Below, piece after piece: positions 1,745 to 59,690 of a stretch of 64,000 bases of DNA (position 1 is its first letter; every line of letters starts with the position of its first letter). Position numbers and translations under genes: made by a program. This DNA is from Polytrichum commune (Eukaryota > Streptophyta > Polytrichopsida > Polytrichales > Polytrichaceae): contig OX485805.1 in assembly GCA_950295325.1 (NCBI GenBank), positions 49,252,758-49,316,757 of the forward strand. Direction: 5' to 3'. Under the pieces are notes generated by a model, which made no database searches, was not told the DNA's origin, and saw nothing but the letters and a program-made list of their open reading frames with translations.

Positions 1745-3030
1745 GAGAAGGAGAGGGCACCCAAAACCACAACCCCTTAAACTTTCTCCTACTTAGTAGG
1801 ACCTTATCCTATCCACTAAACCCTCACCCCCTAAACCAACAAGATATATCCCAATTCAAACACTTAAACCCAAGGCCCTTCCCCTTGCTTCATCAAACAC
1901 TACTCACTTAACCAAAACACTCCCTAATGCCACTAAGCTTCTAATTAACCACACAAAATAAGCCTAAGGCCTAAAACATAACTCCACACCAAGCCTCACT
2001 CTTTTTAATACTTTTAATTGTTTTAATAACAACTTCAAATGCAATTCTAAGTAAATTCTAAACCTAAAACAAATATGAGCAACCATTTTGGGCTCATAGA
2101 TAGCGGTAGTAGAAATTGGTAATGTGTAGGACCGGCAGAGGTAGTAGTGGTAGCAATATGCAATAATATCCTAGAACCAGTAGCATGGTAGGACCTAAGT
2201 TAAAAAGTAAGGTAAGGTTTATTAAAAATGACGCGGTAGAGAAAACATTCATGATTTTGTATTAGAACCAGTAGTGTAATAAGGTAATAGCATAAGGGAA
2301 TGAAGTTGAGCATTGATGGGACATGCCAATGGTTACTTGGGGTCAACAAATGCTAATTAAAAAAATATGGAAGCTAGGTTAGTGATGCATGACACATGTG
2401 ATGGCATATAGGTAGTGCTAATGTTAGTAAGTGGTGTGTTGGTTTGCGGATATATTGAGTCATATAGGGTCTGCTTCATTGGGTTAACAAGGACGGCTTT
2501 GAGCTCAATGCATGCTAGAAACGGGGACAACTGGATTGAGGTTGTGGCAACTTGATTCAAGGGTAGGACAAGTTGGGAAAAGGCTAGGTGGGGGCGATAA
2601 AGGCTATTAGGAACTTGCTTTGTAATTAGGCAATGACCTAGTCAAGGCTCCCTATATGTGGTGGAAACTGAGAAGCTAGTACATGTGGTGAGAATTTAGG
2701 CGTTGAAGAAAAAAATTGCATACTATACTTATTTGTAGTGAAGATATTTAAAATATATATTCTATAACAATGTGGTTGCATTTGCTAAGGCATACATGTC
2801 ATCTCTTATACAATTTGAATGCTATATATTATAGGCAAAATCATCCAAAGGATTGGTTCAAGCACTCTCTACCTTAGAGTTACAAACACACTTTTGAGTT
2901 AGTCAATCCTTATCATTTAAAAGCCTGCTGTAGGAATTAAAAATTACACAAAACCATATTACAACAAGAGTTCATGAAATATATGTAATGTATTGATCAC
3001 CTTGATAAGTATATCCAAAAAAAACTTTAC
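830..3030. other. non-coding region with simple repeats
   Basis: No supported gene. It holds CCGG-rich patches near 900-990 and 1490-1540, a short tandem repeat (1546-1650), a GA microsatellite at about 1711-1740, and otherwise AT-rich sequence. Confidence 0.5.
1546..1650. repeat. about 40-bp tandem repeat, 2.5 copies
   Basis: The motif AATCCCAGCAGCTCCTA, followed by AGCTCGG and CCAGCAGTCCC, is repeated with small changes. The third copy is truncated. No coding potential is visible. Confidence 0.6.
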
Positions 3031-3057
3031 TACACTCTAACCTCCGTAGTATCACAC
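3031..3057 (+). repeat. pogo-like terminal repeat, left end
   Basis: Begins TACACTCTAACCTCCGTA and continues to TATCACAC. About 21 of the first 24 bases match the reverse complement of 18927-18950. Aligned without gaps it also matches 22 of 27 bases of the left end of the pogo-like element at 40066. The leading TA fits the TA target preference of Tc1/mariner/pogo elements. I saw no partner end close by, so the best partner is the one at 18950. Confidence 0.5.
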
Positions 3058-3530
3058 CTGTGGGAACCAAAGTGCACGTGATATTACAAAGTTTTGTAGT
3101 GTTAACATGGATGCGTGGTCCTATATAGCACTATATTCGTTAATCGGAGACTTTTGAAAGTCTCAAAATAAAATATGCCCATAGTTTGGGATGCCAATAT
3201 TGTGGGCATATGGAATGTTGGGAACATCAAGAACATGACAATTTAAAAATTCGCACGTAAAGAATATTTTAATACTAAAAATAGAAAATTGCAATTATAA
3301 TGAAAACGTGAACTCCATGTGGAAAATAACAAGCGAATCTAAAAAACAAATGGTTTATGTCATTATAGAGTTTGGGGTGCGCATCCCATAAGTAAGGTTC
3401 TTATGGTTTTGGATGGCACATCCCAAACGTATATCACAATGGAGTATGACAAGTCTACTAAGTCTATTAAAAACCAAGACTACTAAGCACTAATGTTTTT
3501 CCCCGCCGTTAACTTTCACCTATGTTATGT

Positions 3531-6500
3531 TTACCCATCTCCATCTTCCGCTTCATATCCATTCTCGGCGTCATTTTCCGCAGCTACAATACGTGCCAAG
3601 TTGTCTTTGGCAAAATCTATATGTTTTTGGGGGATGGTCATTGCTTCTGTGTTGGAACCTTTGCGCGGCTTCCAAGCACAAAGTATAGTATCCGTGTTTA
3701 TCCAAACCGGTGTGTACGCTGAGTCCACTGTCCACTTAAAATTCTTTTTGGTGTCCCAACCTAAATAAGTGCGGAGCACGTTCTGGTCTTTAGTGCTTGG
3801 ACGACAATATTCCACCTCAATTTGACGAAAGTTGGGGCTAGTTCGAACAAAATTGGGTGAAGACAATGCTTTTACCAACCAAATTGGCTTGGGATGCTCC
3901 TCATCCCTTGCTCGTACGAGGATCAAATAACCTTCATGGCAATCAACACCTACACGAAACGACGGTGCCGGTCAATTGCGGGCAGGGCCAACGTAATGCT
4001 CGTCCATTGCGAACTCTTCACGAGCGTCTCCATTGCTGAAAAACATAGTATTGGACTCGACAACCGTCAAACGACTTTGTGGCCAAAATCCTTGTGTCAA
4101 AGTCGTACGGGTGTCGCCACCAAGTGTCATCAAGGCTGAGCGAATGCGATCCCAATACGCGATCAACGGTTCATGGGTATCTCTAACACGTCTTGTGATG
4201 TCCTCCTCGCACAACTCTTTCCAATATTCAATGAATCCGGATATGCCTTTGATGATTTCCGGCCCATTCCTCATGGGTTCGGGTTTGCAAGGCTTTGGTT
4301 CCCCATCCGGGACCAAACATTTCCCATCCTTGTCTTGACGCCATACGAGTATACCATCATCCGGGCCCCAATTAGGAGATGTGCACAAAAGCTTGAACTG
4401 CATGGCCGGGACACCATCATCCCTCATATAAAATCGGAATTGTTGTGCTTTGGTATGTCCCACCAAACGGTCCACTCCCTTCAACATGTATGGCTTGATG
4501 AAGGCCTTGAAATTTGGTACTTCCTCAATCATGTGCGGTATCACCGGCATATGGTCTAAATCCATATATGATTTCATAAGAAGTGGTATTGTCGGAAAAT
4601 CTTCCTCATGCAACTTCATGCTCCAACGGCCAAATGACACATCAATGTCGTCATGTGTGTGTCCCACCATCAAGAAAGACACAAACACCTCTTTGAAGAT
4701 TCATTTTGCCACGAGCAATGACCAAAAATAAAATATGTATCGACATTTGTTGTCCTTCACACAATTATCTAGTTGAACGTGGAAAGTTGGAGGCAATGGT
4801 TTTGCACAAATGGGTTCTCTAGGTGGTTCCCGTAATGATGACATACAAACCTCCCTCCCCGCAAGCACTGCCTCATAAAGGGGTGTCGTTCCACAACCAT
4901 CAAAAAGTCCACGGGAGGAATGTACCGGTGGCTGCTCAAGATCGCGCAAGAGTCTTGCAAATGAACCCACCGTGTGGTTAGCATCTCTAAGGTAAAAATC
5001 CAAACCATAATGGGTATACTTAACATCCCCATGGCCATGCGCAATCATACCTGGAAAAAACAAACGATGCGTGAACAAAATTGGATGAAATGGAATAACT
5101 ACTAAATGGATGTATGGAGTTGAACATTTGCCAAACACACTCAAGAAAATTTGATAGACTTTAAACACGTCGTTGTGATTTCATACGAACCTGTGACAAC
5201 CACGGGCAACTTGAAGAGACCATCCGTGGCCTTTATTTTGCGTGCATAACAAGGGCATGCGGTCTTAGCGTGGTCCATTTTATCATGGATAACTGTTAGA
5301 ACCTTTGTGGGCCTCATTATAGATAGAGCACGATTTTTGTAGTAATCTTGACGGTGTGCCTCTTGGTTGTTGACATGCTCAATATATTTTGTCTGGTGTC
5401 TGGTATGAGATTCAGTGCCTATGGGGTGGGCGTCTCGAAGACCTTTGTATTTTTCACACGTCGTACACCTAGCGAACTTGTCTCCGGGTCTCTTCAAAAT
5501 GTATTCCGCAAACTGTTGGTTTTTAATCACACTCAATTTGGACAAAGAAATGGGCTCACATCCCGCTATGCGACCCACTTCGTTGATGTCCGTTAATATG
5601 TTCTTCCATTTTGTGCCCGTGGGCAACACCGTTTGAACAACTTTCTCCCCTAATGACAATGTCCTCGTCTTGTGGGGCATTGCATCGGCCAATGGCACTA
5701 TGATCGTGGAGAGTGTCGCCGAGGCTTGGAGTGTAGCCTCCCGAGGTTTCTTTGTGCCCAAATTTCCATGAAATCGAGAGCGGCGACCCAACGATGAATA
5801 CTTTTGAAACCTATAAAAGTCAGACTTTGACACGGCATGGATGGTATACCACGCGGTACAACACACTTCCACATTCTCTAGTGTGACCACCTTATGCCCA
5901 TGGGTGTCAATGTGCACATTTCTGTGGACCTCGAGTTTTTTTGCCGATCTCATACGGAAATCGGCAAGCCACATCTCTTCACGAAGAGACCTAATGTTTT
6001 CGCGAGGAAAAAATTGGCAACATCTCCTCGCGCAACAGTCCTTGGCGGACATGACATGGATAGAATCGTCTCCCAATATGCGATCCCGTCGTCGCTCCTT
6101 ATCACCGCGAGACACGTGGTTAGAATCATATATGCGAAGGCCTTTGCGAGGAGGTAATTTGGCCAACAAAGCTGATTGCGTTTCTTTGTGCCGCCGCCCA
6201 TGATTCCACAAACTTACTTCTTCATGTAGAACTCGACGAAGGGGCCATCGACGCAAGGAAAATCTCCATGTCACCGGAACCTCAAGTGGAAGCAAAAAAT
6301 TCAAGATGCAAACACCAACATCGTCGTCACCGAGGGAGTTGGCATCAATACAATCACGGGGATCGGAGTTTCGACATATGTCATTTGCTACCGGTACCCC
6401 AAGGTCGTTAAGTAGAACAACATCAAGGCCTACCCATTGCTCTCTTCCAAAACCCACAGACAACGGAATGTCACCGTGGTCATCCCCGGAATGTAGAGAT

Positions 6501-6667
6501 TGTTCGAGCCCTTCAAGTGTCTGATCGGGGGATGCATCCACAGGCACCCCCACCACGTTTGTAACGTCAGTACCATCCGCCGACGTGAAAGATAGTTCGC
6601 ATTCACTATCGGCGGACGATGCATTAGTAGACAACTCCAATGAAATATCTCCCAAATGCATCTTCAT
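3531..6667 (-). pseudogene. DUF7869-like gene, interrupted by two TGA codons
   Basis: Two exons. Exon 1 runs 6667-5191, starting at ATG 6667 (or 6661); a 140-bp GT-AG intron covers 5190-5051; exon 2 runs 5050-3531. The join G|GT restores an unbroken frame of about 998 codons. Visible motifs are a zinc-ribbon-like FARCTTCEKYKGLR, then VIHDKMDHAKTACPC just before the intron, QLDNCVKDNK, and VGHTHDDIDVSFGR. This set resembles the DUF7869-type proteins of plants, animals and fungi. Spaced D...LDN...HTHDDID residues suggest an RNase H-like nuclease or transposase fold, but that is inference. TGA codons at 4703-4701 and 3974-3972 break exon 2 while the flanking frame continues cleanly; both could come from CGA by CpG decay. 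The N-terminal 250 residues are acidic and basic without a recognised domain. The next gene upstream is divergent. Confidence 0.7.
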
Positions 6668-6802
6668 TGTCCCTAAACAAACCACCAACACCTGAACAAA
6701 CAAAAACCATCGCAATGTTCAGAAGAGCGCACAAATTAGATGTCCAAATATATGGCCTAGAACTCAAACAAGGGAACTAACGGAAGGCTCCACAAAAATA
6801 GA

Positions 6803-8037
6803 CGAACGCACGTTCGAAAAGAATACCAAGACATGGAAACACTGCATGGAAATCCCATGGCAATTGACACCGGCAGCAAATTGTGATATATATCATTCGT
6901 GAAGGGTGATCATATGATTTGCACAACCATAGCGAGGATAGCACACCAACCAAGGACAGGTTAAATATACGAACGGCCGTTCGTAAGCTCTTCCCAAAAC
7001 AATATACGTAAATCACACTTGGACCCGGCGCAATTCCAATAACTCAGGCCATACGATGCCTGAAGACATGCCACCCTGTCTGTCGTGGCAAATGACAGGT
7101 ACCACATCCCGGCGTTCACTTGAAAATCAGTGAACGTCATGTTTACGAACGTGCGTCCGTAAGTTCTCTGCCGTACTGTGGGGTTACATGCAGCAATGTT
7201 TGTCTCTAAGTAAAATATCGGATGCGGCAAACATAATCCCAGGTTGTATTTACGAACGAACGTTCGGAAATTTGATGAATCTACGAGTATACGTTTGAAA
7301 TGGCCGTGAGGAGAAACGAACGTTCGTTCGCATATAACTGTCATATTGAAAGTCCAGAAACAATCAGTGATGGTGATGCCTGCGTGCACAATAATCCCAT
7401 GTGGCTTTTACGAACGCGCGTTCGTAAATACCCGTCCATCCTATATGCTTGTGGAGAGAACTGGAAAATGGTGGAATTACAGGTATACATTTGTATGAGG
7501 CTGGTGTACATATTTACGAACGCGCGTTCGTATATCAATGACATCTACAATATGAATATGTCTATCCATATGCACTGCCTGTGACTACCCATGTGCACGT
7601 GTATCTATAGGTCTCTGAAATCGGACTGCTTATACGGTACTTACGAATGTGCGTTCGTAAACTATCCACCATCATCTATCAGACCAATTTATATATGTGC
7701 CAGATCGTGTGATTTACGAACGCACGTTTGTAAATACCCGTCCATCCTATATGCTTGTGGAGAGAACTGGAAAATGGTCGAACTACAGGTATACATTTCT
7801 ATGAGGCTGGTGTACATATTTACGAACGCGCGTTCGTATATCAATGACATCTACAATATGAATATGCCTATCCATTTGCACTGCCTTTGACTACCCATGT
7901 GCACGTGTATCTATAGGTCTCTGAACTCGGACTGCTTAGACGGTACTTACGAACGTGCGTTTGTAAACTACCCATCATCATTTATCTGACCCATTTATGT
8001 ATGTGCCAGATTGTGTGCTTTACGAACGCGCATTCGT
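6803..8037. repeat. palindrome cluster 1 (12 copies)
   Basis: Twelve copies of the 16-bp inverted repeat ACGAACG-NN-CGTTCGT, with 0-1 mismatches in the arms except one short-spacer form. They lie at about 6802, 6969, 7145, 7252, 7316 (short), 7410, 7516, 7643, 7716, 7822, 7949 and 8022. Most extend to TTT on the left and AAA on the right. The two central bases vary (CG, TG, CA, AA, GC) while the arms are kept. The cluster fills the region upstream of the DUF7869-like gene. Confidence 0.9.
7405..8016 (+). repeat. 306-bp tandem duplication carrying palindromes
   Basis: About 7405-7710 and 7711-8016 are near-identical copies offset by 306 bp (for example AAATACCCGTCCATCCTATA at 7426 and 7732). 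Each copy contains three palindromes. The beginning of a third unit may follow at 8017. Frames across it that end in TNARS are palindrome translations, not genes. Confidence 0.85.
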
Positions 8038-9187
8038 AAAATCCCGGTATTTACGGCGGTATATGCGGGTGTGAAGGTTGTCGTGTACCTGGGAGGTGGG
8101 GGTTGGCGCACACGAAAATGCCTTCCGCGAGCTCCGTCGGGTCTCTGGAGCGCACCCGGCGTGTGCCGCAGAAAAGAGCTTTGCAGTGGGGGGAAGAGCT
8201 TTAAGTACTTGTCTACGATGGTTCAAAATTCCTTGGATGCTCTTAAAAAAGCCGATTCCCGCCGCCTACTTTGACCTACCAGTATGTCATTCCATCCATG
8301 CGCAATTATATATTAAATAGCATTATGTAAGGAACATGTATTGCATACACGCAACTTGATATTGAAAATATGTAAATCGGTCGCAAACCTTAGGTGTTAC
8401 CAAGGTCTCATGAATATAAATATGTATATAATAGATACATAATATCAGAATATGATGTTGGTCAATATAGAATATTAAATGATTTGCGACCAAGTTGTGA
8501 AGTCCAAGTTAATTGACAATGGAAACCTAATATATGTTATGAATGAATGTGATTGTGTGTGTATATATATATATATATATATAACTAAGGTAAACTCAAT
8601 TAAAAACAAGTTGTGGAGGCCCCTAAAATTATAGGAATGCCCATATGATTCACATCGAATCACGCCCGTAATATGCTCACAAGTGTGTGAAAACCATTAA
8701 AAAGATGGGTTAATCCATAATGGCTTGTACTAGGGTAGATTGAGGATAATATGAATCTAATCATAACTAGATGTAAGTTAGGACTAAATTCAAATGTAAC
8801 CATAGGTATAGGAATAATGAATTAAAATGGCATGTATGGAAATGTTTAATTAAGTTGGAATGATCAATATGATAGAGTAATCATAAGAAATGAAACCATA
8901 CTTATGACAAGTCACACTTAAAATTATGTGTTTTACATCCTGTCAGAAGTATGTGGATGCTTGTATTAGATAAAAGTGTTGAGTTACAGTAAAGTCTTAA
9001 GACATGCATGTTATAATGATCCCATGTTTGGATTATGTGATCAAATAGCACTGAAGAGTATTAAGGGGGAAGATGGAGCATTTCAATACTCACTTTTTGC
9101 CCAAACCAAAGCTTTCCCCGAAATCTATTAATGTTGAATCTCAAAATAACAATTGGCATGGTATAAAAAAAAATGTAGGGATGCAGG

Positions 9188-9229
9188 GTTTAGGGTTTGT
9201 GATAGTTGTGTATTAGGGTTTAGGGTTTT
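9188..9229 (+). repeat. short interstitial telomere-like motifs
   Basis: GGGTTTAGGGTTT near 9188 and AGGGTTTAGGGTTT near 9216, separated by about 15 bp, resemble the plant TTTAGGG telomere repeat. The runs are too short to mark a telomere. Confidence 0.5.
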
Positions 9230-9339
9230 GTCATTAGTACGATACATTACACACACACACAAACAATATTGACTCCTAAAAACCCGTACTGCACTAACTT
9301 AATTTATGCAAGCTCAAAGTTCATGATACCCTCTCTACA

Positions 9340-9825
9340 CAATCTCAAATTGGTCCTTTATGAATGTAATAGTGATTTGAAAAACCATGGTTCGAATTGA
9401 AAGATATTATATTGTTTACGAAAACTGTATATTATTTGAAAACATCATATACACATCCTTAGGGGTGTGTTCTTCATTGGAAACCTATTCCATACATTTG
9501 ATGCTAGCGAGATATCTGACCATATGGCTCATTGGTTAAATGCAATCCCATCATTGTTGAAAATTAAAGTTCAATGCACTGTACAAGTTTTAGTTCAAGT
9601 TGACGCCCAATTAAATGATTCAATTGACGTCCTATTGGAGATTGAATTTTCCTCCACCTCTTGTAAATAAGCGAATAGGGCCTCTAAACAATCTCAAATT
9701 GGGTCCTTTAAGTACTATGTCATATATACCTGAAGAACGATGGTTCAATCTTAAAGTTATCTCGTTCATGAAAACTCTATACTGTACAACACCATATACA
9801 CATCCTTGGGGGTGGATTCTTCATC
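9340..9825 (+). repeat. diverged direct repeat, two copies
   Basis: About 9340-9482 and 9685-9825 share the order ACAATCTCAAATTGG, a GGTTC(A/G)A motif, ATATACACATCCTT and GGATTCTTCAT. Related sequence recurs near 34750-34865 and, inverted, at 35508-35590, so this is an old dispersed repeat family of unknown class. Confidence 0.55.
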
Positions 9826-10059
9826 GCAATCGCACAAAATGCATATATTATTGTGCAATACGAATTAACTTAAGGTTGTTTTGAAAATATGTTTACAAGG
9901 AATCTAATAGTAAATGTACTAAGGGCATATGGTAATCAAAATTCATGTCTTCATACTAAGTTCTTTAAGTTAATGTGATTAATGCTTCCATTACATATAA
10001 TACATATACACATGTTTTACGCCCCCCCTTCATTACATCTACATCCATCTCCAATTGCA

Positions 10060-10260
10060 TTTCCCCCCATCCCCCCATCCCCCCATCCCCCCACGTGGAG
10101 CGTCGCCAATGAAAGGACGGCATTGGGCCGTCGCCATTGGCAGAACGCCATGTGGCAGCCAAGGGTAAACCCTAACGGCGCCGGCCACCACCCCGCGGCC
10201 CTTCCCACTTCTCCTCATTCTCAATTGGAACAGAGAGGAGGAGAGGAGAGCTTAGAATAT
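10060..10260 (+). promoter_or_regulatory. probable promoter / 5' end of the plus-strand gene
   Basis: An abrupt C-rich and CpG-rich stretch in AT-rich surroundings. It has a repeated CCCCCCAT run (about 10063-10095), CCAAT/ATTGG boxes, and a telo-box AAACCCTAA at 10167-10175, an element common near plant transcription starts. A purine-rich leader-like stretch follows (10230-10260). A good donor, GTGAGT, at 10619 and the acceptor at 11393 would make a 5' UTR exon and leader intron. Confidence 0.5.
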
Positions 10261-10618
10261 TCGAAGCGAAGCTCTGCCAGATTGTAGTCTGCCTTGTTTT
10301 ACTTTGCTTGAAGTTGTGTTTGAGTTGCATATTTCGCTTGAGAGGTGACTTATTGTGAGTAGGGAGCTTGAGGGTTGCAAGAGCGCTAGTAGACTCACCT
10401 GCAGTTTGAATATTGGGATTTGAAAGCTTGAAGCTTGAAGCTTGAAGCTGCACCAGATTAGGCGCTAGGGTTTGTACATAAAGAGTGAGGCCTTGAAAGT
10501 GTGGTGAAGGAGTGAGTGGTGCAAGAGTGCATTTCAACAACAGGCATTGTAGATTTGTGTGTTGTTGTGTGGTTTTTTCAGCAAGGGAGAACCAATTTTT
10601 GTCAAGGAACACTTCAAT

Positions 10619-11393
10619 GTGAGTACATTCCATCCAACTTGCCTCACAACCCACATCCTGAATTGGTTCATTGTAGATTTCCTTTTGCATTGTTTGAAGG
10701 GTGAGCCTTGGCAGGTTTTGCATGCAATTTGAGCTTTGCTAATCATTCTAAAGCTCAGATATGTTGTGTTTTTCATTTTTTGTTCAATTCAATCGTTCTG
10801 ACCACGCACTTGCAAGCATTCTACACATGAATAAGCACATTCTACCCTATACGTATTCGTATATATATACGAAACCGTATATATACGGACAAGATGTGAA
10901 CAGCCAAACCAACCACATTTACGAACATGCGTTCGTAAATGCGAATGCATTGCCTAACCCAACCCTTTTTACGAACGCTCGTTCGTAAATACCCCTATCC
11001 AAAGCCCATGCGAAGGAGTTTTACGAACGCGCGTTCGTAAATACCCTTCACCCACAACACAAATTCAAAACTTTACGAACGCTCGTTCGTAATATACGAT
11101 ACAAAACAACATACACCAACATACTGTCAGTGATAAACACACTAAGTGAAATCATTCAAACCAAATATCAATCTTACGAACGCACGTTCGTAAAAACGTG
11201 AAATGTAAATTAAACCGACCAAAAACTATTTACGAACGATCGTTCGTAAATATGAACAAAGGCCTCTAGATCAAATATATGAAATGTTATACAACCAAAC
11301 CAACAATGCAAACAACATTGTCTGCGGCATAGTGGTACCACTCACGAACGAACGTTCGTAAATACTTCACTAAAAGTGTACATCATTGTGCAG
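10619..11393 (+). other. predicted leader intron with palindrome cluster 2
   Basis: Donor GTGAGT at 10619 (alternative GTGAGC near 10701) and acceptor TGTGCAG ending at 11393, just before the ATG. It contains seven palindromes starting at 10921, 10971, 11023, 11075, 11176, 11232 and 11344. Six have perfect arms. The last ends 34 nt before the exon. Splicing is predicted, not shown. Confidence 0.55.
10921..11359. repeat. palindrome cluster 2 (7 copies)
   Basis: Seven copies of ACGAACG-NN-CGTTCGT at 50-110 bp spacing with unrelated sequence between them. Central dinucleotides are TG, CT, CG, CT, CA, AT and AA. One copy has a single G-to-A change at a CpG. Confidence 0.92.
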
Positions 11394-12689
11394 ATGGCTA
11401 GATCAACCAGGAGTGCCATCGAGATGTTCGCAGTGAAGGTGGACAGCCTGCCACAGTCAGTGTCGGATACAAACGACAATGACAATTACGTCCCAAAGAT
11501 CGACTTCATGGGGGAGTGGACAGCGCTGCCAGAGAAAACCGAAGACGGTCTTTTTGTCCTGCGCTTCACCTACGAGCTGGAGACGAGACCGGACCAGCCA
11601 GAACAATGGGTGCAGATGAAGACATGGGAAATAGAGTCAATAGAGGCCCAGGGGGATTACGTCATTTTGGATATGAAAAACAAGAAGGACCACATCAACC
11701 TCCTCTTGCACTACATGGAGCACTCCTTCTCCCACAATTACGCCATTCTGACCGTGGGAGAAGAGGCCAAGCATTTCAACCTGCAGAATCACTTCACAAA
11801 GTACGCTTTGAGCCAGTACTGGACAGCCAGAAAGTTAACTGCCTTGGCTTTAAACATCTCCAAGTATAAAAGTGTGGTCGCCGAGGCGAACAAGAAGAAG
11901 AAGAGTCCTAGAAAACCTTCTGTGTCCGGCGCAGGAGGTTCGAGAAGTGCACCCCGGCCTGTGCCATCCGCGAGCCGGGGGACGGACGGGCCCAGCAGAC
12001 AGTCCACGCCATCCAAAAGGACAAAGGATGACTTGGAAAAATCGGGTGTAACAGACACGGCGGAGGTGAGCTCGCCTCCCGTTATGCCAATTCCTTTGAA
12101 GAAGGGACAAAACCCGGACGCCGTGAAGGCTACCAGAATCCTGAGAGACTTCAACACTTACTCAAAGGATTGCTGGCCCATGGGGAGGCACTTTACATTC
12201 AACGTTGATTGCTTCAAGTGCGAGAAATCGCCAAACAAGTGGGTGGTGAGGTCTCGTGAGAGCGGGGGTGTCAAGTGGCAAATTAACAATTTGATGAACA
12301 ACGTCAAGTGGGACAGGCAGACCGTTTGCGTGATGCCGAAGGGCTTCACGTCCCGTCCGACTGAGAAAGATTGGCCCCGGATCCAGAATGGTGAGTTCTG
12401 GATCATAGATGGACAGCACAGCCTAGAGGCGTCGCAGCTCATCCTGAAGGACGATAACTTCCAGCATGAGCTGAAGGCGGACCTGCGCTACTGGAAGGCC
12501 TTCTTGGTGTGGTCTGACGACTGGGACAAGCTCCGAAAGATTTCAACTTTCTTGAACTCAGGCAATAAGATAAAGGCGTTTGAGGCGTCCTGGGCAGCAA
12601 ACATAGTGGCTGCACGAGATGTCTAGGTGGCACATGGTTGCCCACCAAAAGAGAGAGAGAACGCGAAGACCCAGTCTCCTCAGTGGAAG
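11394..12689 (+). pseudogene. exon A: ParB/DGQHR-like segment, internal TAG
   Basis: First coding exon of a predicted four-exon gene, 432 codons, starting with ATG 11394 directly after a CAG acceptor. Codons 1-160 are a folded-looking region I do not recognise. Codons about 165-230 are lysine/serine/proline-rich linker. Codons 320-410 hold FWIIDGQHSLEAS (D at codon 339) and ISTFLNSGNKIKAFEASW, which resemble the DGQ/H-R core and downstream N-rich helix of ParB/Srx or DGQHR domains. The usual Arg after DGQH is Ser here. A TAG at 12624-12626 (codon 411) stops the frame. The same frame then stays open for 21 codons to a strong GTATGT donor at 12690 and joins exon B in phase 0, so the stop looks like a recent nonsense change. 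A product truncated there is possible. Confidence 0.65.
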
Positions 12690-12813
12690 GTATGTTTACG
12701 AACGAACGTTCGTAAAAGTCACTGCATTTCAATTTTCTTTTTTTCATGAAGTTTCCATTTCACGAACGTGCGTTCGTATTTAGAGCAACACTGACATTTG
12801 TTTCGCATTGTAG
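12690..12813 (+). other. intron 1 with a palindrome at each end
   Basis: 124 bp, GTATGT to TTGTAG, phase 0. Palindromes occupy 12698-12713 (8 nt after the donor) and 12762-12777 (36 nt before exon B). The two copies are complementary to each other as well as to themselves, so they could fold the intron. Confidence 0.75.
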
Positions 12814-14139
12814 GCATTTTGCGATGCGATGGTGGACAAATTTTCCTCTATCGATATGAAGTCCACCACCACAAAGTCAGTACTTGAGCTGAAGGGTGAG
12901 CTCCGTCTCATCTGCTGCAACAGGGACACTTGGGAGTTGTGGACCCAATTTTTTGACGCGCACAGCTCGGGCGATCTCGTGAACCCCGACACCGAGGAGA
13001 AATACAGCTCGGACAAGACCGGAGAGGCCCCTCCACTCCTAAGGAAGTTTTTCAGGTCCCTGCAAGGACTCACGGAGTCCGAACTTCAGCGCTGCGCGGT
13101 TCATGTACTTGGGAACACAGTTGGGAGAACAATCCCATATCCCAAGATTTTTTTGAAGAGGCCCAAGCATAAGCCCGGAACATACTCCATCAAGGAATGG
13201 TGTGAGCATAGGAAGATGAAGACATCTATGATGCGAGAGCTTAGCGCTCTCGTGCCAGAGATGCACCTCTTCCTTGCCGACGGCGACATCAACTGGGCCA
13301 ATTGGAAGGTGTTCAAGTCGCGTTACAACATCAACGGGGCCTCAATGCGAAGCCTAGTGAAAGAGCACATCGCCGTTCTGAAACTCAAGGGCAATAAGAG
13401 GGCCAAGAAGACCGAGACAGAACCCGAGGAGCTGCAACGGTACATCTCCTTCTTGGAGAGGAAGCGTAACGCCACATTCGAGGGCGTTGCCAGATTTTGT
13501 GTGGTGACCACGGGGCTGGAGAGGACCACGTTTTCCAAGTGGGATGGCACCTTCAGCAGGTCCGAGGTCAGGGAGGATCGAAGGGGTTGTCCCTTCGCGG
13601 TCATCGACTTCAGAGGGATCCCCGGTGCCTCGCGACAGGGCGCGAAGGGGGAGCCTTTTTACAACCCTTTCATGGCGAAATTCATGGAGCACAAATCTCT
13701 GACCATGAGGGAGCCGCACGTATGGCTGTGGATTGTGGAGCAGGAGAAGCAATCCGACGTCATCGAATTGTATGAGAACAAGATCAAGTTCGAGTACAAC
13801 ATCTTCCACAACACATACGTGCCAGCGAAGACGGAGGGGATTGTTGCCGTAAACGAGGCCAGAGGCAACAAGCAGGTGGGAGCGGTGAGCCTCATCTTCT
13901 TGACGTACAATGCGCTTAGGAATGGGCGAGCACCCATAAAGGCGAACAACACATTCAAGAAGATATACAGCATCCCTCACCCACCTCCAAAGGATCTCTT
14001 CCAGGAGACTTTGTACACTGTCTTCCCAGCGCTGGAGCTGAGGATGGAGTTCTACATCTCCATATTGCAAGGTTTGGCGATGACTGGCGAGACTGTCTAC
14101 AACATATTTGGGGGCAGCAAATTTATGTACGCGGCCATG
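12814..14139 (+). CDS. exon B: degenerate N6/N4 DNA methyltransferase-like domain
   Basis: 442 codons, phase 0 at both ends (TTGTAG|GCA to ATG|GTAAGC), fully open. The second half has the layout of a beta-class DNA amino-methyltransferase. CPFAVIDFRGIPG (D at codon 265) sits where the DPPY catalytic motif is expected. A segment with PHVWLWIVEQ follows. About 167 codons later comes TGETVYNIFGGSKFMYAAM (F at codon 432), matching the glycine-rich SAM motif usually seen as G-D-x-V-x-D-x-F-x-G-S-G. Both motifs are altered (DFRG for DPPY, SK for SG), so catalysis is doubtful and it may be a non-catalytic reader. ParB-like plus methylase fusions are known in bacteria and phages, which supports both calls together. 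Residues 1-250 are not recognised. The assignment rests on motif order alone. Confidence 0.6.
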
Positions 14140-14327
14140 GTAAGCCATCTCACACCACTTTTTACGAACGCTTGTTCGTAAACACTACATGCTCCAAACA
14201 ATTTATCATGGGCAACCGATACTTATGATTGTTTTGTGAATTGTTTTGTTAATATTTCCTCGCTCGAAGCCTTTATGTTTACGAACGCGCGTTCGTATAT
14301 GACTGAATCTTTGCCTTTGTATCTCAG
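14140..14327 (+). other. intron 2 with a palindrome at each end
   Basis: 188 bp, GTAAGC to ATCTCAG, phase 0. Palindromes at 14164-14179 (24 nt after the donor, one C-to-T change at a CpG) and 14281-14296 (31 nt before exon C). Confidence 0.78.
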
Positions 14328-15785
14328 ATGCTGGGGCTGTGCGTGAACACATACATTGATGCCGTCGACGAGGAGGATTACAAGTTCCACAGGACAAAAG
14401 CGTCGACGATGGACCTAGCTGACATGTCCGTGCCCAGAACGGACTTCAACATGCAGGCTGACGAAGGCATGCCTCCCATGGAAACAGACGACGACGAGCC
14501 TGGCCCCTCCGTCAACGTCGATGCCATCCTCCAGGCTTTGGATGTCACCCCTCTCCGGTTGTTGGCCCCATCGGGGGAGCCTTCGGAATACCAAGGGACC
14601 CCGGCTGGATGTACTGGATCCTCGGCAGGTGCCACCCAGGATGTCCTCCCCGCAAGAGTGTCTGGTGCGGAACCCTTCGGCACGCCTGGAGGCTGCTCGA
14701 CTTCAGTGTCTCCAAGGCCCATCGTTGTTCCGAGGATGGAGACCCTCGACCTCCTCGACCAACGCTCGCGTCCATCCTTGGACCTCTTCCGAAACACGAG
14801 GAGGAGGATGAAGAAGACGCCGTACGTGGAGTTGCCTGAGGGAGCAATCATCGAGGTGTCCGACGAGGACGAGGGCGACATGGACATCATGGCGGAGCTG
14901 GGGGTCGATTACGACAAGAACAAGCGGGTGAAGGAGGAGGCGCTGACTGTTGCCGAGCTGAATGCCAAGCTAGAGCAGAAAATGAAGGAGGAAATGGCGG
15001 CTGCGGCAGAGGAAAGTGCAAGAAATATGGCCCGCATGCAGGAGGCGCTGCGGGAGTCCGCAGCAAAGACGGACGCCATATTTGAGATGCTCAAAAATAT
15101 GCAGAGCTTCTCAGCACCAGCACAACAGCCTTACCCCTTCCCCGGAGGATACCCCACCCATTCCCCCCATCCAGGCCTGTTCCCCGGAGGACCTTCGCAC
15201 CCACCAGCACCACACCCAACGCCAGCTGGGAGTCCTCCGCCCCCTCAAATGACTGCCACCCCCGCCAACTCCCACGATGCGATAAGGGCTGCCATACGCG
15301 AGGACGAAGATTTACGAACGCGCGTTCGTGAATCCTCAGGTCCTGCAGTCCTAACCCCTCCCCCTCCAAGGATAGGACTGGCCTCAGTCACGGACACCGC
15401 CTCTTTGACAGTCGTCCCGAGGGTAGTGGATAGGCAGGGCGATGAATCTGCGCAACACACTGACATGGTCATTGTGGAGGAAACGCAGGGGAGCCCCAAT
15501 GACACGGCAGCTGTCCAAGGAATGGACGTTGAGAGCCCTGACCTAGGACGACATCCATCCGCGGAGATGGAGGATGTCCGCATGGACACTCTTGACCTGG
15601 GCGGAGACGACGACGACGACGAGGCGGACCACATTGTGCAGACCCAGGCGTCACAGTCGGAGCGTGCCACAGATGCCATGGAGACAGAGGCGGCTGGCCC
15701 AATGGGGATTACGAACGCGCGTTCGTTAATCGAAGAGGAGGGAACTGCTCGGTCCAGCGCCGCTGCCCCTCCCCTCGATGACGAG
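14328..15785 (+). CDS. exon C: disordered acidic/proline-rich linker with coiled coil
   Basis: 486 codons, phase 0. It opens MLGLCVNTYIDAVDEEDY, which completes the helix after the SAM-like motif of exon B and supports the join. It then becomes low-complexity, rich in P, S, D and E. Around codons 200-260 is a heptad-like, Glu/Ala/Lys-rich stretch (VAELNAKLEQKMKEEMAAAA) that should form a coiled coil. A Pro/Gly-rich stretch follows (PYPFPGGYPTHSPHPG). Palindromes at 15314 and 15710 are read through in frame as LRTRVRES and ITNARSLI. The frame would end at 15800 if unspliced, but the GAG|GTAACT donor at 15786 lies in frame before that stop and links to the HAD exon in phase 0. Confidence 0.65.
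15314..15329. repeat. palindrome inside coding exon C
   Basis: Perfect ACGAACGCGCGTTCGT embedded in the open frame, translated as part of LRTRVRES. No usable GT donor lies just upstream, so it does not look intronic. Confidence 0.85.
15710..15725. repeat. second palindrome inside coding exon C
   Basis: Perfect ACGAACGCGCGTTCGT in the open frame, read in a different frame from the copy at 15314 (ITNARSLI). It lies in an acidic, disordered part of the protein. Confidence 0.85.
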
Positions 15786-16348
15786 GTAACTCTCCTCTGA
15801 GAATACCACTCATTTGACGAACGCGCGTTCGTAACCACTAACCCATGCGCGTTGTGTTCTTGGCGGTTCCTGTCCATCAGCATCACGAGGCGTGCGAGGA
15901 CTCTTCTCTACGTGGACCCTTAGCCCGATAAATTTTGTAGAACACGGCATGTATTTGCCATAGGAAACTGTGAAAAATTATCACGTGAGACAATTGTAAA
16001 TATTCACCGAATTAATATATGAGCATATGATCTCTGCGTCGCATCTCCCAAACTTATTGTATCGTATCGCATCTTGTATTATGTATGTTCATGCGCATCA
16101 TTACACTTTCACACCCACCTCATTAACGACCGCCCGTTCGTAAAAGGGTGCGACCATCTGTCCACCTCCTTCACGAACGAGCGTTCGTAAATGATGCGCC
16201 ACCCCAGCCTTCATTCACGAACGCTCGTTCGCAAGTCTGCACTTGACCACATTCTCCTTGCACTATTTTCCTCGCATAATCGTCTTTTCCTTAATGCAAT
16301 GTTATTTATTGGATCATAGAATTAAACTAGTCGAGTTGTTAATCACAG
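15786..16348 (+). other. intron 3 with four palindromes
   Basis: 563 bp, GTAACT to AATCACAG, phase 0, AT-rich against GC-rich exons. Palindromes start at 15817, 16126, 16173 and 16217; two carry single arm changes. The first is 31 nt after the donor, the last 116 nt before the exon. Confidence 0.65.
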
Positions 16349-17116
16349 GATCCCCCGGAGATAGGTCGGAAACCCTCGACCAGTGGACGTCTTACCCGAA
16401 ACAAACCGTTCGTCGTGTTCGACCTGAACGGGGTGTTGTGTCACACCGAACACATCCCCCGGGTCCCCACGCGTCCCTTCCGTCACCCCGACGAAAGGGA
16501 CTACGACGGAGAGCTCGACACGCTCATTAACCGCAAGGCTGTCCGCGCCCGTCCCGGCCTGCGTGACTTCCTTCGAGAGGTGCTCGATGTAGCTCACGTC
16601 ATTGTGTGGAGCTCCATGGTCATGGAGAACACCGAGCCAATCGTTGACTTCCTCTTCCGCGATCTTCCGAGGCCTTGCCTCATCCTCGGCCAAGAGGATT
16701 GCGATGAATTGCTTGACGAAAAGGGTATGCCGGTTCCAAAGTTCGGCGGTCGTGGCGGAGGACAACAATTCCTCAAGGTCCTGAGGTCAAGACTGTGGCG
16801 GGGCATCCCCCGGTTGCAGGGGGTACCCCACGGGTGGTGGCCTACCCCCGAGAACACCGTCCTCGTCGACGACAGCCCCACCAAAAGCGTCTTGAACCCC
16901 CCGGGGAACGTCATCTTCCCCGCCACTTGGACCGGCGATAGGAACGACACGTTTGTGGTCGATACGCTAGCGCCTTACCTTAGAAGGCTTGTTGTCCACG
17001 CCGGTAGCATACCATTTTTTGTTAGGTCCAACCCCATCGGCAATGTGGGTTTAAGCCCCCGTGATAATGTATTCAAGAGCATCATGAGGCTCGCCAAACT
17101 CAATAAATTGATTTGA
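16349..17116 (+). CDS. exon D: FCP1/SCP-like HAD domain
   Basis: 255 codons plus TGA, opening in phase 0 after the CACAG acceptor. It has the HAD phosphatase motif series of the FCP1/NIF group. Motif I is KPFVVFDLNGVL (D25), motif II VIVWSSM (codons 84-90), a lysine-containing QFLKVLRSRLW comes next, and motif IV is VLVDDSPTKS (codons 172-180). The family acts on phosphorylated CTD-type peptides. The second Asp of the DxDG motif is Asn here, which normally weakens or abolishes phosphatase activity. A frame from 16415 alone would lack the beta strand before motif I, so the longer start through splicing is preferred. It may be the C-terminal domain of the upstream gene or a separate gene; matching phase and the palindrome-bearing intron favour one gene. 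Confidence 0.68.
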   Translation, partial: DPPEIGRKPSTSGRLTRNKPFVVFDLNGVLCHTEHIPRVPTRPFRHPDERDYDGELDTLINRKAVRARPGLRDFLREVLDVAHVIVWSSMVMENTEPIVDFLFRDLPRPCLILGQEDCDELLDEKGMPVPKFGGRGGGQQFLKVLRSRLWRGIPRLQGVPHGWWPTPENTVLVDDSPTKSVLNPPGNVIFPATWTGDRNDTFVVDTLAPYLRRLVVHAGSIPFFVRSNPIGNVGLSPRDNVFKSIMRLAKLNKLI

Positions 17117-17229
17117 AATTCCTCCATGTCTTTGCTTGTTATCGTGTGGTTCACATATCTAATGCTTGCTCTGTTTTGGATGTCTTTTGTTGTTGTGATT
17201 GTTGTTGTTTTTGTTGTTCTTGCCCATAG

Positions 17230-18130
17230 TCTGCCCCAATATGCTACGCCCCTGTGGTCGACGGCCCTTCCCGTCCCCTCTCGCCCCCTGCCTCCCCTTC
17301 CCGCGACGTCACGGACTTCCAAATGCCATCCCTCTACCACTTTTCGGCGGTCGACGCGGCCTCGGCTGTGGATTACTCCCGTGACGTCGGCATCGACGAC
17401 GGTGTCGTCAACAGCCCGCCCCCCGCACTTGTCACCCGCGCCTACGCCCCGTCATCCTCCCCCCTCTCCAAGGAGAAACGGACGCTCGTTCGTTTGGGGC
17501 ACCTCTCGCCCTCTAGGGACGACGGCGTCTCCGCATGGACTTTGCCCCCGCCGACTCCGTTCCTCCCCCCGCAACGTCCTCCGCGATCGTGGGCCCTCCA
17601 GGCCTCGACTCCCCCCCGCCATCCAACAGTGCAATAGTTCCATCGGCTCCGGATGCTCCCGTCGACGCCCCCCTCATTCCCACCGTTCCCCGCATGGACG
17701 TCCTCAAAGCCAAGGTGCCCTCCTCAACCCTAAACCCCTTTCCCGCTTTTGCTTTGCTTGTCTTCCGTGTGCGTGCCGTTCTCTTTACGAGCGCCCATCC
17801 CAAACCGCCCTCATTATTTTCCCCACTCCATTCCCATTCTTATCTTCCTATGACGTTGTTTCGCAGGTGGCTACCCGCTCGCTTGGTGCCCGGCCCTCCT
17901 CCACGTCCTCCTTGGATAGGCACGCCCTCAAGGCCGCATCTTCCGAGTCCGATCGTTGTCTGGCCCTCCGGAGAAGCGCAAGACGTTCCCTTTCGCAAAC
18001 GCCCTCGTATTCTACTTATAATACCACCTCGTACAATTCGGGAGCGCGTCCTGAAACATGCAAGAACAACACATATTCCTGTCCAGGCAACACACAAGGA
18101 TACAGTCGTGGGCCTGAGATTTTTAGAGCC
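17230..18130 (+). other. GC-rich Pro/Ser-rich coding-like sequence, uncertain
   Basis: After a T-rich stretch ending CCCATAG (17229) comes a GC-rich segment. Its frame from 17230 reads protein-like (DFQMPSLYHFSAVDAASAVD) to about 17530, then continuity shifts to another frame. A CAAAGCCAAG|GTGCCC donor near 17718 and a TTTCGCAG acceptor ending at 17866 could bound another intron. A diverged palindrome sits at 17478-17493. The long frame 17126-18187 covers all of this but starts in intron-like, T-rich sequence. It may be further exons, a 3' UTR, or decayed coding DNA. I cannot choose between these. Confidence 0.35.
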
Positions 18131-18868
18131 ATGGAGGCCGCCAAAAAAAAGGACTTAGCCGCAAAAAAAAATAGTGGGTCGGACTAGTGTGACTAGAAGC
18201 GTACTAGTGGGACGGACTCCCTAAATGGGCTTAGGTGTAGAACATATTTAAGTGCTTACTTTCTATGCTATTCCAAGTTACTCAAGACATTGATGGTATT
18301 TCCATTATAATTGTATTTCAATCCCAATTAATTCATTCAACTTCCATTCATTCTTCGCATCTTCCCTTCCATTCATAACGAGTTGTCATTTCATACGCAA
18401 CTATTTTCATGTATGCCTCACATTTTTGTTCACTTTCATGCCTTTATGTATAATAATAGTAGCATACCATTATACATATGGGATTTTTAGTCGTCATTAC
18501 TGGTCCAATTTTGAAATGTGCATCCTTATATAGTCTCATAATCAACAAAAAGTCTCCAATTACCGAATATAGTGTTATATAATTAGTGTAGCATGTGACA
18601 CTATGGAATAACACAAAGTGCAACATTTTAATGGTGTGGTGTGGTCTGCTCCACTTGGCCTTCCCGGGCGATGTGGCATATGCATGCACCGACATTCAAC
18701 AAGTGGCATAAGAAGAAGAAAAAGAAGAAGAATAAGAAGATGACACTCCACACGTTGACACATGGCGCAATGCGAGAATGTGGGTTGACTTCTTGAATGG
18801 TCTGCATTAATGACAAAATTCATGATATAAGGAAGAGAAAGGTGACAATAAGGAGTGAGATTTGAACT
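18131..18868. other. non-coding flank
   Basis: AT-rich sequence with a GAA-rich run near 18710-18740. No gene seen. Confidence 0.5.
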
Positions 18869-18884
18869 ACGAACGTCCGTTCCC
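18869..18884. repeat. outermost palindrome copy on the right
   Basis: ACGAACGTCCGTTCCC, two changes from the consensus. It lies 42 bp inside the right pogo-like end and is the last copy in the window. Confidence 0.6.
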
Positions 18885-18926
18885 TAGGGTGTCGGGATAT
18901 TAGAGAGTGAGTGACATTATGGAGGT

Positions 18927-18950
18927 TGATATTACGGAGTTTAGGGTGTA
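18927..18950 (-). repeat. pogo-like terminal repeat, right end
   Basis: The reverse complement begins TACACCCTAAACTCCGTA and continues to ATATCA. About 21 of 24 bases match the left end at 3031. It ends in TA, as expected for a TA target. The ends of the pogo-like element at 40066-41777 are related (20 of 24 bases). Confidence 0.5.
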
Positions 18951-19022
18951 CGTACCCCAATCATAACATTGGGGCCTTCGTGTAAATGATAGTGGGGTAT
19001 GACTACATATGGTACATAAAGA

Positions 19023-19317
19023 TGGTTGTGGATATGCCTCCGATATGTTGTCGGTTTACAAATACTGAAGCAAGCCAGAAGTGGTTCATGTGCACCAGGC
19101 AGGGGTTTTCTGACGCTTATGCATGCTTGTGACACCTGGGCCAGTCCTTCCTCTGCCAAAAGTGAGAGTCTTGTCTCCTTGACCTCAAATCGCTTGATTG
19201 CATGCCTAGTAAAGCTCTGCGGAGTGTTGAGTGCATGTACGTTTGCGAGCCTGCAAGGTAGCTGGCTTTGAAGGAGATGGAAGAAGGTCTTGTTATTACT
19301 CAGGCGTTAGTGACGTA
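19023..19317 (+). repeat. dispersed repeat, copy 1 (about 295 bp)
   Basis: Closely related to 21807-22085. Both run from GGTTGTGGATATGC through GAAGCAAGCCAGAAGTG and TGCAAGGTAGCTGGCT to CTCAGGCGTTAGTGAC. Similarity continues past the end until interrupted in the other copy by a MITE at 22110. No coding potential. Confidence 0.7.
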
Positions 19318-21717: not shown

Positions 21718-21806
21718 CACTGCTTTATATGACTTTCTTTACTTGGCATTGAAATAAAAAGGATTCAAGTGTCTCCAAAAAAGAAAAAAACCCTACAAAA
21801 AAAGTT

Positions 21807-22085
21807 GGTTGTGGATATGCTTACGTTGTGCTGTCGGTTTACAAATACTTGAAGCAAGCCAGAAGTGAATCATGTGCATGAGGCAGGGTTTCTGACAAGT
21901 ATGCCCAGTCCTCTCTCTGCCAAAGCTCAGAGTCTTGTCCCTTTGACCTCAAATCACTTGATTGCATGCCTGCCTAGCAGAGCTCTGCTGATGAGTGCAT
22001 GTACGTACGTTGGCGAGCCTGCAAGGTAGCTGGCTGCGAAGGAGATGGAAGAACTTCTTGTTAATTACTCAGGCGTTAGTGACAT
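21807..22085 (+). repeat. dispersed repeat, copy 2
   Basis: The diverged partner of 19023-19317. The homologous block continues after the MITE at 22110-22320, with GGCCTCTCTAA corresponding to the sequence after 19335. This dates the MITE as younger than the duplication. Confidence 0.7.
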
Positions 22086-40065: not shown

Positions 40066-41777
40066 TACACCCTAACCTTGATAATATCACACTTGTTAAT
40101 AGAACACCTTGATATTGTCACCTAAAAGTTTGAAACCGATTTCCATAGTGTAAAACTCCCTCGTTATTATCACTATCACCCTTGATAATGTCACATTTTT
40201 TTTTCAAAATTTGTAGTGTAAGTGTGATAATAACAAGTAACATGGATGAAAAAAGGCCGGATGGACAACAAATTCTATGGATGACAAATTCTACAGACGG
40301 AGTCGGAGTTGCATTGGCCATGGCAAAGATCCCATTCATATTGAAGAAATATGATCCAGAAGACATCTTCAATTTTGATGAGACAGGTTTGTATTATAGA
40401 GCCTCTCCTTATAAGACTTTGAATATTGGGAAGGCGAAAGGAAATAAGAAAAAGAAGGACCGTGTGACATTGGGGCTTTGCACTAATATCTCAGGGAAGG
40501 AGCGATTGAAGCTTGTTTTCATTCACAAAGCAGCGCGTCCCAGATGTTTTCCTCAGAATTTTGATCCAAATAGGACAGTACACTATTATTCTAACAATTC
40601 AGCCTGGATGAATGGTGATGTTTTTACACATTGGGTGAAGAGTGAGAACCGAAGAATGGCATTGAAAGACAAAAATATTTGCATTATTATGGATAATGCA
40701 GGAAGCCATGATATTCATGGTGAGGTCAAGAAAGTTATAGATGGGTTTAATGCTTTTGTACTCTCCCATATCACTATATTGTTCCTTCCACCAAATGTGA
40801 CTTAAGTTGTTCAGCCTTTGGATCAAGGAGTGATTGTAGCATTCAAAATGTGCTATAAGCGCAAGCTTGTTGCCTGGACTTTGCAACAAATTGATAACAA
40901 CTCAAATGAAGATTTGGGGAAATTGAATGTTGATGTATTTCAAGCTATGCTATGGTGTGTGGCGGCATGGCATGAATTAGATGATCAAACCATTAGAAAT
41001 TGTTGGAGAAAGTTTGCCATATTGCCTACAAAGTGGAATGCAGATATAAACAATCTTGATGAACGTATGAAGTCCAAAATAAAGGAAGCAACTTTGGAAT
41101 TGGGTAGACTCATCGCCGCATTAAATTTGGGTTTGGATGTTGAAGGCAAGCCTGTAGAAAAGCTTTGTCCTTTGGAGTACATAAACATGGAAGGTGAAGA
41201 TGATTTTGAGGTGGAATTTTCTACTGAGGAGCTTGTGCAATTAGTGCAAGATGGCGAACATGTTCTTGATTCCATGGAAGTGGACCCATTGATTGTTGAT
41301 AGCAGTGATGATGAGTCTAAAGTAGTGAAGCTAAGCGATGCACAAAATATATGCTAAAGATATTTTGAATTTTATGGCTAGCCAAGGTTCTCAGATTTTC
41401 AGCACTCATGAGTTGTTAGAAATGGAAAAAATCCATGACAAACTCATTAGAATTGGTGTTGCACATTTAACATCAACAAAACAATGTGACATTAGAAGCT
41501 TCTTTGTCTCTAGTGAGAGGTCTTTACCTGATCTCAATGACACATTATGATGTGCTCTTGTTGTTATTCACAATTTTGAATTAGATTTTACATTCAAAAA
41601 CATTGAAGTCTCGTATTTGTTATTTTTTTAAAATTGTTATTATATTTTGATTTTCTACATATTTTTTGATAATATCACATTATGCACAAAATGTGACATT
41701 ATCAAGTATGTCACACCTTGTTTATATCACACTTTTTGGTGAAACGGAGGGTGTGACATTATCAAGGTTAGGGTGTA
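40066..41777 (+). mobile_element. pogo/Tigger-like DNA transposon, decayed
   Basis: 1.71 kb bounded by TA. The left end is TACACCCTAACCTTGATAAT and the right end reads the same on the other strand for over 20 bases. Related TTGATAATGTCAC motifs recur inside each end (40115, 40185, 41685, 41745), as expected of transposase binding sites. It holds a broken DDD transposase. The element looks short for an autonomous pogo transposon because the N-terminal coding region is missing. Confidence 0.85.
40182..41550 (+). pseudogene. pogo/Tigger transposase, N-terminally truncated
   Basis: DDE_1-family catalytic core. First Asp in IFNFDETGLYYR, second in IIMDNAGSH, third in VVQPLDQGVI, preceded by LFLPPNVT. 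The usual N-terminal CENP-B/Tc5-type HTH domains are absent, since the frame begins close to the catalytic core. A TAA at 40803-40805 sits between NVT and VVQPLDQ, where CAA or a Ser codon is expected; the same frame continues after it. A frameshift near 41340-41357 moves the C-terminus (IYAKDILNFMASQG) to another frame that ends at 41550. It cannot make a working transposase. Confidence 0.85.
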
Positions 41778-58690: not shown

Positions 58691-59690
58691 AAGTAAGTTT
58701 TGTTCTGGAAGCCCTCAGGGTGAGGAGGTTGCATCCGAAACACAAACGGAGTCCTCCATGGAGGAGCTGTTGTGTTTCTGAACTCGAGTTCCATGCTAAG
58801 TTCGTACTCTCAGACTTGGAGTGAGGTGTTCATGTGAGTAATTTTTAATTTGTTCTTGAAGCCCTCAGGCTGAGGAGGTTGCATCGATCACAAGCGTCCT
58901 CCATGGAGGTGTTTCTGAACTCCAGAATGCTAAGCTCGTAGACTTAGGCTTGGAGTTAAGGTATTCGTGTGAGTAAGTTTGTTCTCAATGCCCTCAGGGT
59001 GAGGAGGTTGATTCGGTCACAAACTTCCTCCATGGAGGAGGTGCTATGTTTATGAACTCGAGAATGATAAGTTTCGTATAGTGCCTAGATTTGGAGTAAG
59101 GTATTCATGTGAGGAAGTTTGTTCTCGAATCCCTCAGGAGGAGGAGGTAACAACAATCACACACCTCCTGCACGGAGAAGCTGCTGTGTGGCTGAACTCC
59201 ACAATCATAAGTTTGTATATTGAGGCTTGGAGAAAGGTATTCATGTGAGTATGTTTGTTCTGGAATCCCTCAGAGTGAGGAGGTTTCATCGTCACAAACC
59301 TCCTCCATGGAGGAGCTGGTGTGTTTCTAAACTCCCGAAAATGAGCCTAAGTTCGTATCCTTCAGACTTGGAGTAAGGTATGGATGTTGAGTAGGTTTGT
59401 TCTCGCGTTGCTGTTTCACTTATCTCACCAAAAAAACAAAAAAAGAATCTCAAAACCCTCAGGGTACAGAGGTTGCATGGATCACAAACCCCCTCCATGG
59501 AGGAGTTCCTGAGTTTGCATACTTAGACTTAGAATAACGTATGGATGTAAGTAAGTTTGTTCTCCAACTGTTGCATTTGTCTTGGAAAAATAAGAATACA
59601 ATAAAAAGATGTTCTAGAGGCCCTCATGGTGAGGAGGTTGCATCGATTACGAACCTCCTCCATGGAGGAACTTCTGTGTAATTCCCATTA
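58691..59690 (+). repeat. tandem array of hairpin-forming units
   Basis: Seven diverged units at about 58711, 58861, 58990, 59131, 59267, 59455 and 59621, with spacing 129-189 bp; an eighth lies at 60115. Each reads CCCTCAGGGTGAGGAGGTT, a loop, then AACCTCCTCCATGGAGGAG. Two inverted repeats overlap: GAGGAGGTT with AACCTCCTC, and the palindrome CTCCTCCATGGAGGAG. Between units lies GGAGTAAGGTATTCATGTG. No conserved reading frame. Confidence 0.85.

Follow-up and report, generated by a model that had tools for sequence, protein, structure and literature searches.

The element and its genes

We analyzed a 64-kb stretch of the genome of Polytrichum commune (contig OX485805.1; hereafter the window, whose coordinates are used throughout). 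As judged from the sequence, the window holds a DNA transposon of about 15.4 kb that has inverted ends of the CACTA type and encodes two genes in divergent orientation, and it is in this element that copies of a CpG-rich 16-bp palindrome are concentrated (Table 1).

The terminal inverted repeats match at 31 of 34 nucleotides (nt) and reach an alignment score of 53, whereas none of 200 shuffles scored above 28; the seed-extension score of the pair was 25, that of the next best pair 14. In the stretches compared, no other strong inverted repeat surrounds the palindromes. The CACTA-type 27-nt ends, which match at 25 of 27 positions, begin with CACTATATTCG, and no third copy of them was found in the window at up to 8 mismatches. 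CACTA (EnSpm) elements generate a 3-bp target-site duplication. No clear duplication was found here, the flanks being TAG on the left and TTA on the right; TATATA is present on both flanks and, being self-complementary, is not decisive for a target-site duplication.

The left gene is free of palindromes and encodes a putative transposase. DUF7869 was the sole candidate for a CACTA-type transposase in a Pfam search. The right gene, referred to below as the accessory gene, is predicted from the sequence to consist of four exons (1616 codons including the stop) separated by GT-AG introns of 124, 188, and 563 bp. Its product is predicted to contain a ParB N-terminal domain fold, with KorB among the fold matches; the structure matches span residues 217-427 and barely cover the helical region after the ParB-like fold. 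Weak matches in exon 2 suggest a Rossmann methyltransferase-like domain. DNA amino-methyltransferases carry the catalytic motif [DNS]PP[YFW], and this motif is not found at its expected place, as judged from strand order, where DFR is invariant (18 of 18 rows). Because the catalytic motif is missing, the domain may read DNA or methylation rather than write it. Exon 4 matched PF03031 (E = 4.5e-14) and, under its cut-off, TIGR02251 (E = 5.4e-08), so that a phosphatase domain of the NLI-interacting-factor (NIF) type is apparently fused to the end of the transposon protein.

Table 1. Features of the element, with palindromes listed by their first position
Feature	Coordinates	Strand	Remarks
Left inverted repeat	3122..3155	+	element end reads CACTATATTCGTTAATCGGAGACTTTT from 3129
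Left gene, open frames with DUF7869	3531..6718	-	PF25273, E = 1.6e-16 and 3.2e-12, two frames
12 palindromes upstream of left gene	6802..8037		6802, 6969, 7145, 7252, 7316, 7410, 7516, 7643, 7716, 7822, 7949, 8022
Tandem duplication, 306 bp	7407..8040		multiplied four of the left-gene upstream palindromes
7 palindromes directly upstream of right gene	10921..11359		10921, 10971, 11023, 11075, 11176, 11232, 11344
Exon 1	11394..12689	+	weak PH-like fold followed by ParB-like fold (residues ~265-396)
Intron 1	12690..12813	+	palindromes 12698 (8 nt past GT), 12762
Exon 2	12814..14139	+	helical region, then methyltransferase-like domain
Intron 2	14140..14327	+	palindromes 14164, 14281
Exon 3	14328..15785	+	no Pfam family; in-frame perfect palindromes 15314, 15711
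Intron 3	15786..16348	+	palindromes 15817, 16126, 16173, 16217
Exon 4	16349..17116	+	NIF-like phosphatase, DLNG at catalytic motif
Palindrome in downstream open frame	17478..17493		one mismatch
Right inverted repeat	18548..18581	-	element end at 18574
Two-mismatch palindrome	18869..18884		outside strong inverted repeat; doubtful

Number, form and placement of the palindromes

A search of the window for ACGAACGNNCGTTCGT with up to 3 mismatches yielded 35 matches, all of them between 6802 and 18884 and none outside, compared with 0.83 expected and a largest count of 4 in 100 dinucleotide shuffles. Once register-shifted overlaps had been taken out, 31 sites with at most 2 mismatches were counted (17 perfect, 13 with one mismatch, 1 with two), and 30 of them lie inside the element. 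These figures agree with the first-pass annotation of this DNA, which had reported about 30 copies, 17 of them perfect; the four to five CpGs that it gave per copy hold for the perfect ones, and its claim of confinement to 6803-18884 also stands, as a statement on the window only and with the start moved one base upstream, to 6802. The two-mismatch copy at 18869 may be a chance match or a remnant.

Conserved arms flank a variable centre, as had been described, and the symmetry was found to extend beyond the 16 bp given earlier: the flanks favour TTT...AAA, which leads to the motif TTTACGAACG-NN-CGTTCGTAAA, with T at -2 in 26 of 30 copies and A at +16 in 27 of 30. The surroundings of the copies are unrelated in most cases, except that four copies are accounted for by the 306-bp tandem duplication. 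No paired changes in both arms were detected among window copies with up to 3 mismatches, which favours recognition of the letters themselves and not pairing alone. Of the 13 copies with a single mismatch, 6 differ by a CpG transition (P = 0.024 under equal rates for all changes), suggesting that the palindromes have perhaps been methylated at some times.

Within the element, 12 palindromes lie upstream of the left gene, 7 upstream of the right gene, 8 in the introns (2, 2, and 4), 2 in exon 3, and 1 in the downstream frame. Noncoding sequence thus holds 27 of the 30, with approximate coding frames taking up 8509 of 15446 bp (P = 3e-7); when the four tandem copies are left out, the count is 23 of 26 (P = 5e-6). 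The 2.9-kb spacer between the two upstream groups (8040-10920) contains no palindrome.

Palindromes in related elements

Three protein searches (sources ena, jgi, lgn, ncbi, and src) provided 147 relatives, P0001-P0147, a tally in which exon-1 and exon-2 matches are counted apart and which therefore represents fewer elements. The predicted proteins often run past splice sites, so that their ends are translated intron, and their letters constrain the intron DNA. In the tails of close relatives we frequently found YERxFV, LRTxVRK, or FTNxRS, which are three frames of the palindrome.

In order not to assume the motif, all 16,384 half-sites of 7 bases were scanned against tails of at least 6 residues. 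In clade A, defined by at least 60% identity to the window protein, 37 of 50 proteins had such tails, and the best half-site was ACGAACG (30 of 37 tails). The best half-site of clade B was ACGGACG, in 12 of 20 tails and, after two later finds had joined the clade (33 proteins), in 13 of 21; ACGGCCG was present in a further 3 tails. In clade C it was TGGGTCG, in 17 of 36 tails (35 tails of 62 proteins once P0112 was set apart), with the variants TCGGTCG in 4 and TCGGGCG in 3. When the tails of each clade were shuffled once, no half-site occurred in more than one protein.

A half-site of the protein's own clade was present in 30 of 37 tails in clade A, 16 of 21 in clade B, and 23 of 35 in clade C, where P0108 has two kinds. 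Matches that fit just that half-site among the six were found in 22, 13, and 23 proteins, respectively. Clade C half-sites were absent from all 58 tails of clades A and B, and A and B half-sites from all 35 tails of clade C. The LRTxVRK reading, found in 18 A and 5 B proteins, fits both half-sites and cannot separate these two clades. In the coding cores (159,633 nt), matches were limited to two proteins, P0136 and P0035, the latter really an unrecognised tail. Judging from the protein letters, the two arms differ in concert from clade to clade, around an unchanged CG-NN-CG and within a constant 16-bp frame.

We built a quick IQ-TREE tree of 54 exon-1 proteins, labelling 36 rows from their C-terminal tails (the window copy from its own DNA) and dropping 4 ambiguous rows and 14 without a perfect match. 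On these 36 rows the six half-site labels require 6 changes, one more than the minimum of 5. When each unlabelled group was entered separately as well, the tree needed 20 changes, compared with a mean of 33.5 in shuffles, none of which (0 of 200) was as low; as a caveat, A+B and C are joined by long branches in this tree. As seen through the protein tails, related elements appear to carry a symmetric variant of the palindrome that tracks the protein clade.

The median distance from the first palindrome to the valine codon holding the GT of the splice site was 20, 36, and 12 nt in clades A, B, and C (28, 16, and 22 tails). Since the intron is visible in the tails only up to the first stop, this closeness to the 5' splice site is partly a viewing effect, and shared descent adds to it.

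Surroundings of the element

TTTAGGG-like runs occur near 9200, in the spacer; with the general character of the DNA they suggest a plant host, and the predicted introns of the accessory gene indicate a eukaryotic one. A second, weaker inverted repeat (3028-3059 and 18923-18954, score 37, where 200 shuffles of a somewhat larger comparison reached at most 28) lies outside the CACTA-type ends and is perhaps an older element that served as the insertion target of the present one. The doubtful palindrome at 18869 sits between the two right-hand repeats. Direct repeats at 19018-19207 and 21801-21971 are about 88% alike and 2.8 kb apart. At 40182-41357, a DDE_1 transposase domain split over two adjacent frames probably marks a separate element, which we take to be pogo/Tigger-like. 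A 140-bp tandem repeat of about five copies occupies 58692-59405.

Interpretation of the palindromes

The palindrome is probably the recognition site of the ParB-like and methyltransferase-like accessory protein of the same transposon, acting in the manner of VANC in the anti-silencing of VANDAL elements. The protein would bind the many palindromes as a dimer or multimer and coat or occupy promoters and introns. Host silencing by CpG methylation would then be kept off the protein's own family only, allowing expression and movement to go on, and the element-specific palindrome would stop the effect from reaching host genes. A site bound by a dimer was one of three readings offered by the first-pass annotation, and it is strengthened by the conserved arms with a variable centre, the lack of paired arm changes, and the joint change of the arms between clades. 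A self-spreading palindromic element, another of these readings, is disfavoured by the absence of other copies in the window and by a motif that in relatives is clade-specific and in step with the protein. The observed/expected ratio of CpG is 0.94 in the element versus 0.46 outside, and 0.72 in its noncoding part without palindromes; this fits anti-silencing, as it would fit a young insertion.

The ParB fold suggests loading and spreading. A more far-reaching system like ParB/parS in eukaryotes, with loading at palindromes, ParB-like spreading along the element, insulation of the whole element from silencing, and protein and site diversifying jointly into mutually exclusive specificities, appears rather unlikely to us.

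Several observations weigh against recognition of the palindromes by the accessory protein in an anti-silencing role. ParB proteins read parS with a helix-turn-helix domain and bind cytidine triphosphate (CTP) through the motif GERRxRA; this motif is absent from the window protein, which has DGQHS in its place, GQ being invariant there in 25 rows of the alignment. The window copy carries a premature stop at codon 411, in exon 1, a position through which the aligned relatives read, with the exception of P0009, which ends nearby; because of this stop, the copy may depend on others. Three of the 30 palindromes lie in open frames. No perfect site of the own clade was found in 7 of 37 tails in clade A, 5 of 21 in clade B, and 12 of 35 in clade C, and the two clade C rows labelled TCGGTCG do not group together on the tree. 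The half-sites of relatives are deduced from protein sequences, which, being related, do not count as independent of one another. Finally, the high CpG content may reflect merely a young, coding-rich insertion.

Autoregulation without anti-silencing, in which the protein at the palindromes would turn its own promoters, and transcription through its introns, down or up in the way of the repressor KorB, is possible but doubtful. The clusters upstream of both divergent genes, the short distances from 5' splice sites, and the appearance of KorB among the fold matches all agree with it; thirty palindromes over about 10.7 kb, introns and exons included, would however go far beyond a simple operator. 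We regard it as distinctly unlikely that the palindromes control splicing as hairpins in the pre-mRNA, with a stem of 8-9 bp and a loop of 4 nt. Four such sequences are predicted to fold at -9.4 to -11.1 kcal/mol, palindromes follow closely on 5' splice sites, and the arms co-change between clades, but window copies with up to 3 mismatches show no paired arm changes (copies with 4 or more were not sought), all three clades retain CG-NN-CG even though the inner G and C of this core would lie in the loop, and 19 of the 30 palindromes are upstream of the coding frames of the two genes, where they may not be transcribed. Binding sites of the transposase for excision and integration, the remaining reading of the first-pass annotation, are highly improbable: repeats of the TnpA type in CACTA elements are likewise many and short, but the outermost palindromes of the element are more than 3.6 kb away from its left end and more than 1.0 kb from its right end, the palindromes being placed upstream of the genes and in introns instead.

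Comparison with known systems

The closest parallel to a palindrome recognized by the accessory protein is the VANC protein of Arabidopsis VANDAL transposons. In the accessible parts of the reports, VANC proteins recognize motifs that are specific to their element and lie in noncoding DNA, introns among it, the motifs of VANC21 and VANC6 differ, and VANC expression leads to loss of methylation on VANDAL elements (PMC5735166, PMC10398659). As far as these parts describe that system, both cases combine a transposon-encoded protein with many short motifs in introns and upstream regions, tandem motif repeats, and a motif that differs between related elements along with the protein. An element-specific noncoding motif changing with the protein is what we found here, the sites of relatives being read from protein letters. 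Unlike the VANDAL motifs, the present one is a 16-bp, CpG-rich palindrome with two-fold symmetry, mostly dispersed instead of set in tandem arrays; the protein has another, ParB/methyltransferase-like fold, and the ends are of the CACTA type.

The Sola1-1 transposon of Ectocarpus encodes a ParB-methyltransferase accessory protein that is described as similar to transposon proteins of green and red algae, is predicted to make N4-methylcytosine or N6-methyladenine, and was suggested to bind its own element (accessible part of PMC12477816). The likeness to our protein lies in the domains described, a ParB-like one and a methyltransferase one, the latter weakly supported in our protein. Our protein differs by its altered catalytic motif, added NIF phosphatase domain, and CACTA-type ends of the element, and candidate palindromic sites can be named for it, whereas the accessible part of PMC12477816 gives no binding sites for the Sola1-1 protein. 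We found no report of cognate sites of ParB-methyltransferase transposon proteins in the open-licence literature.

In partition by ParB and parS, parS is a 16-bp palindrome. The ParB N-domain fold and the clustered 16-bp palindromes resemble this system; the missing CTP motif and the occurrence of palindromes by the dozen within a eukaryotic transposon do not. TnpA is likewise a protein of CACTA elements, with sites that are subterminal and not palindromic. Our accessory protein, encoded by a CACTA-type element that we propose it protects or activates, is similar to TnpA of Spm, except that the palindromes are internal. In maize, TnpA activates Spm, and activation correlates with demethylation (accessible part of PMC10398659).

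It had previously been proposed for ParB-methyltransferase proteins of algal transposons that they bind the element encoding them and modify it, and a concrete candidate site can now be named. With at least three clade-specific versions of the palindrome, the idea of self-binding becomes testable by simple binding assays. If true, recognition of the palindromes by the accessory protein would be one more case in which sequence-specific anti-silencing arose independently, and one in which a eukaryote employs the ParB fold with palindromic sites.
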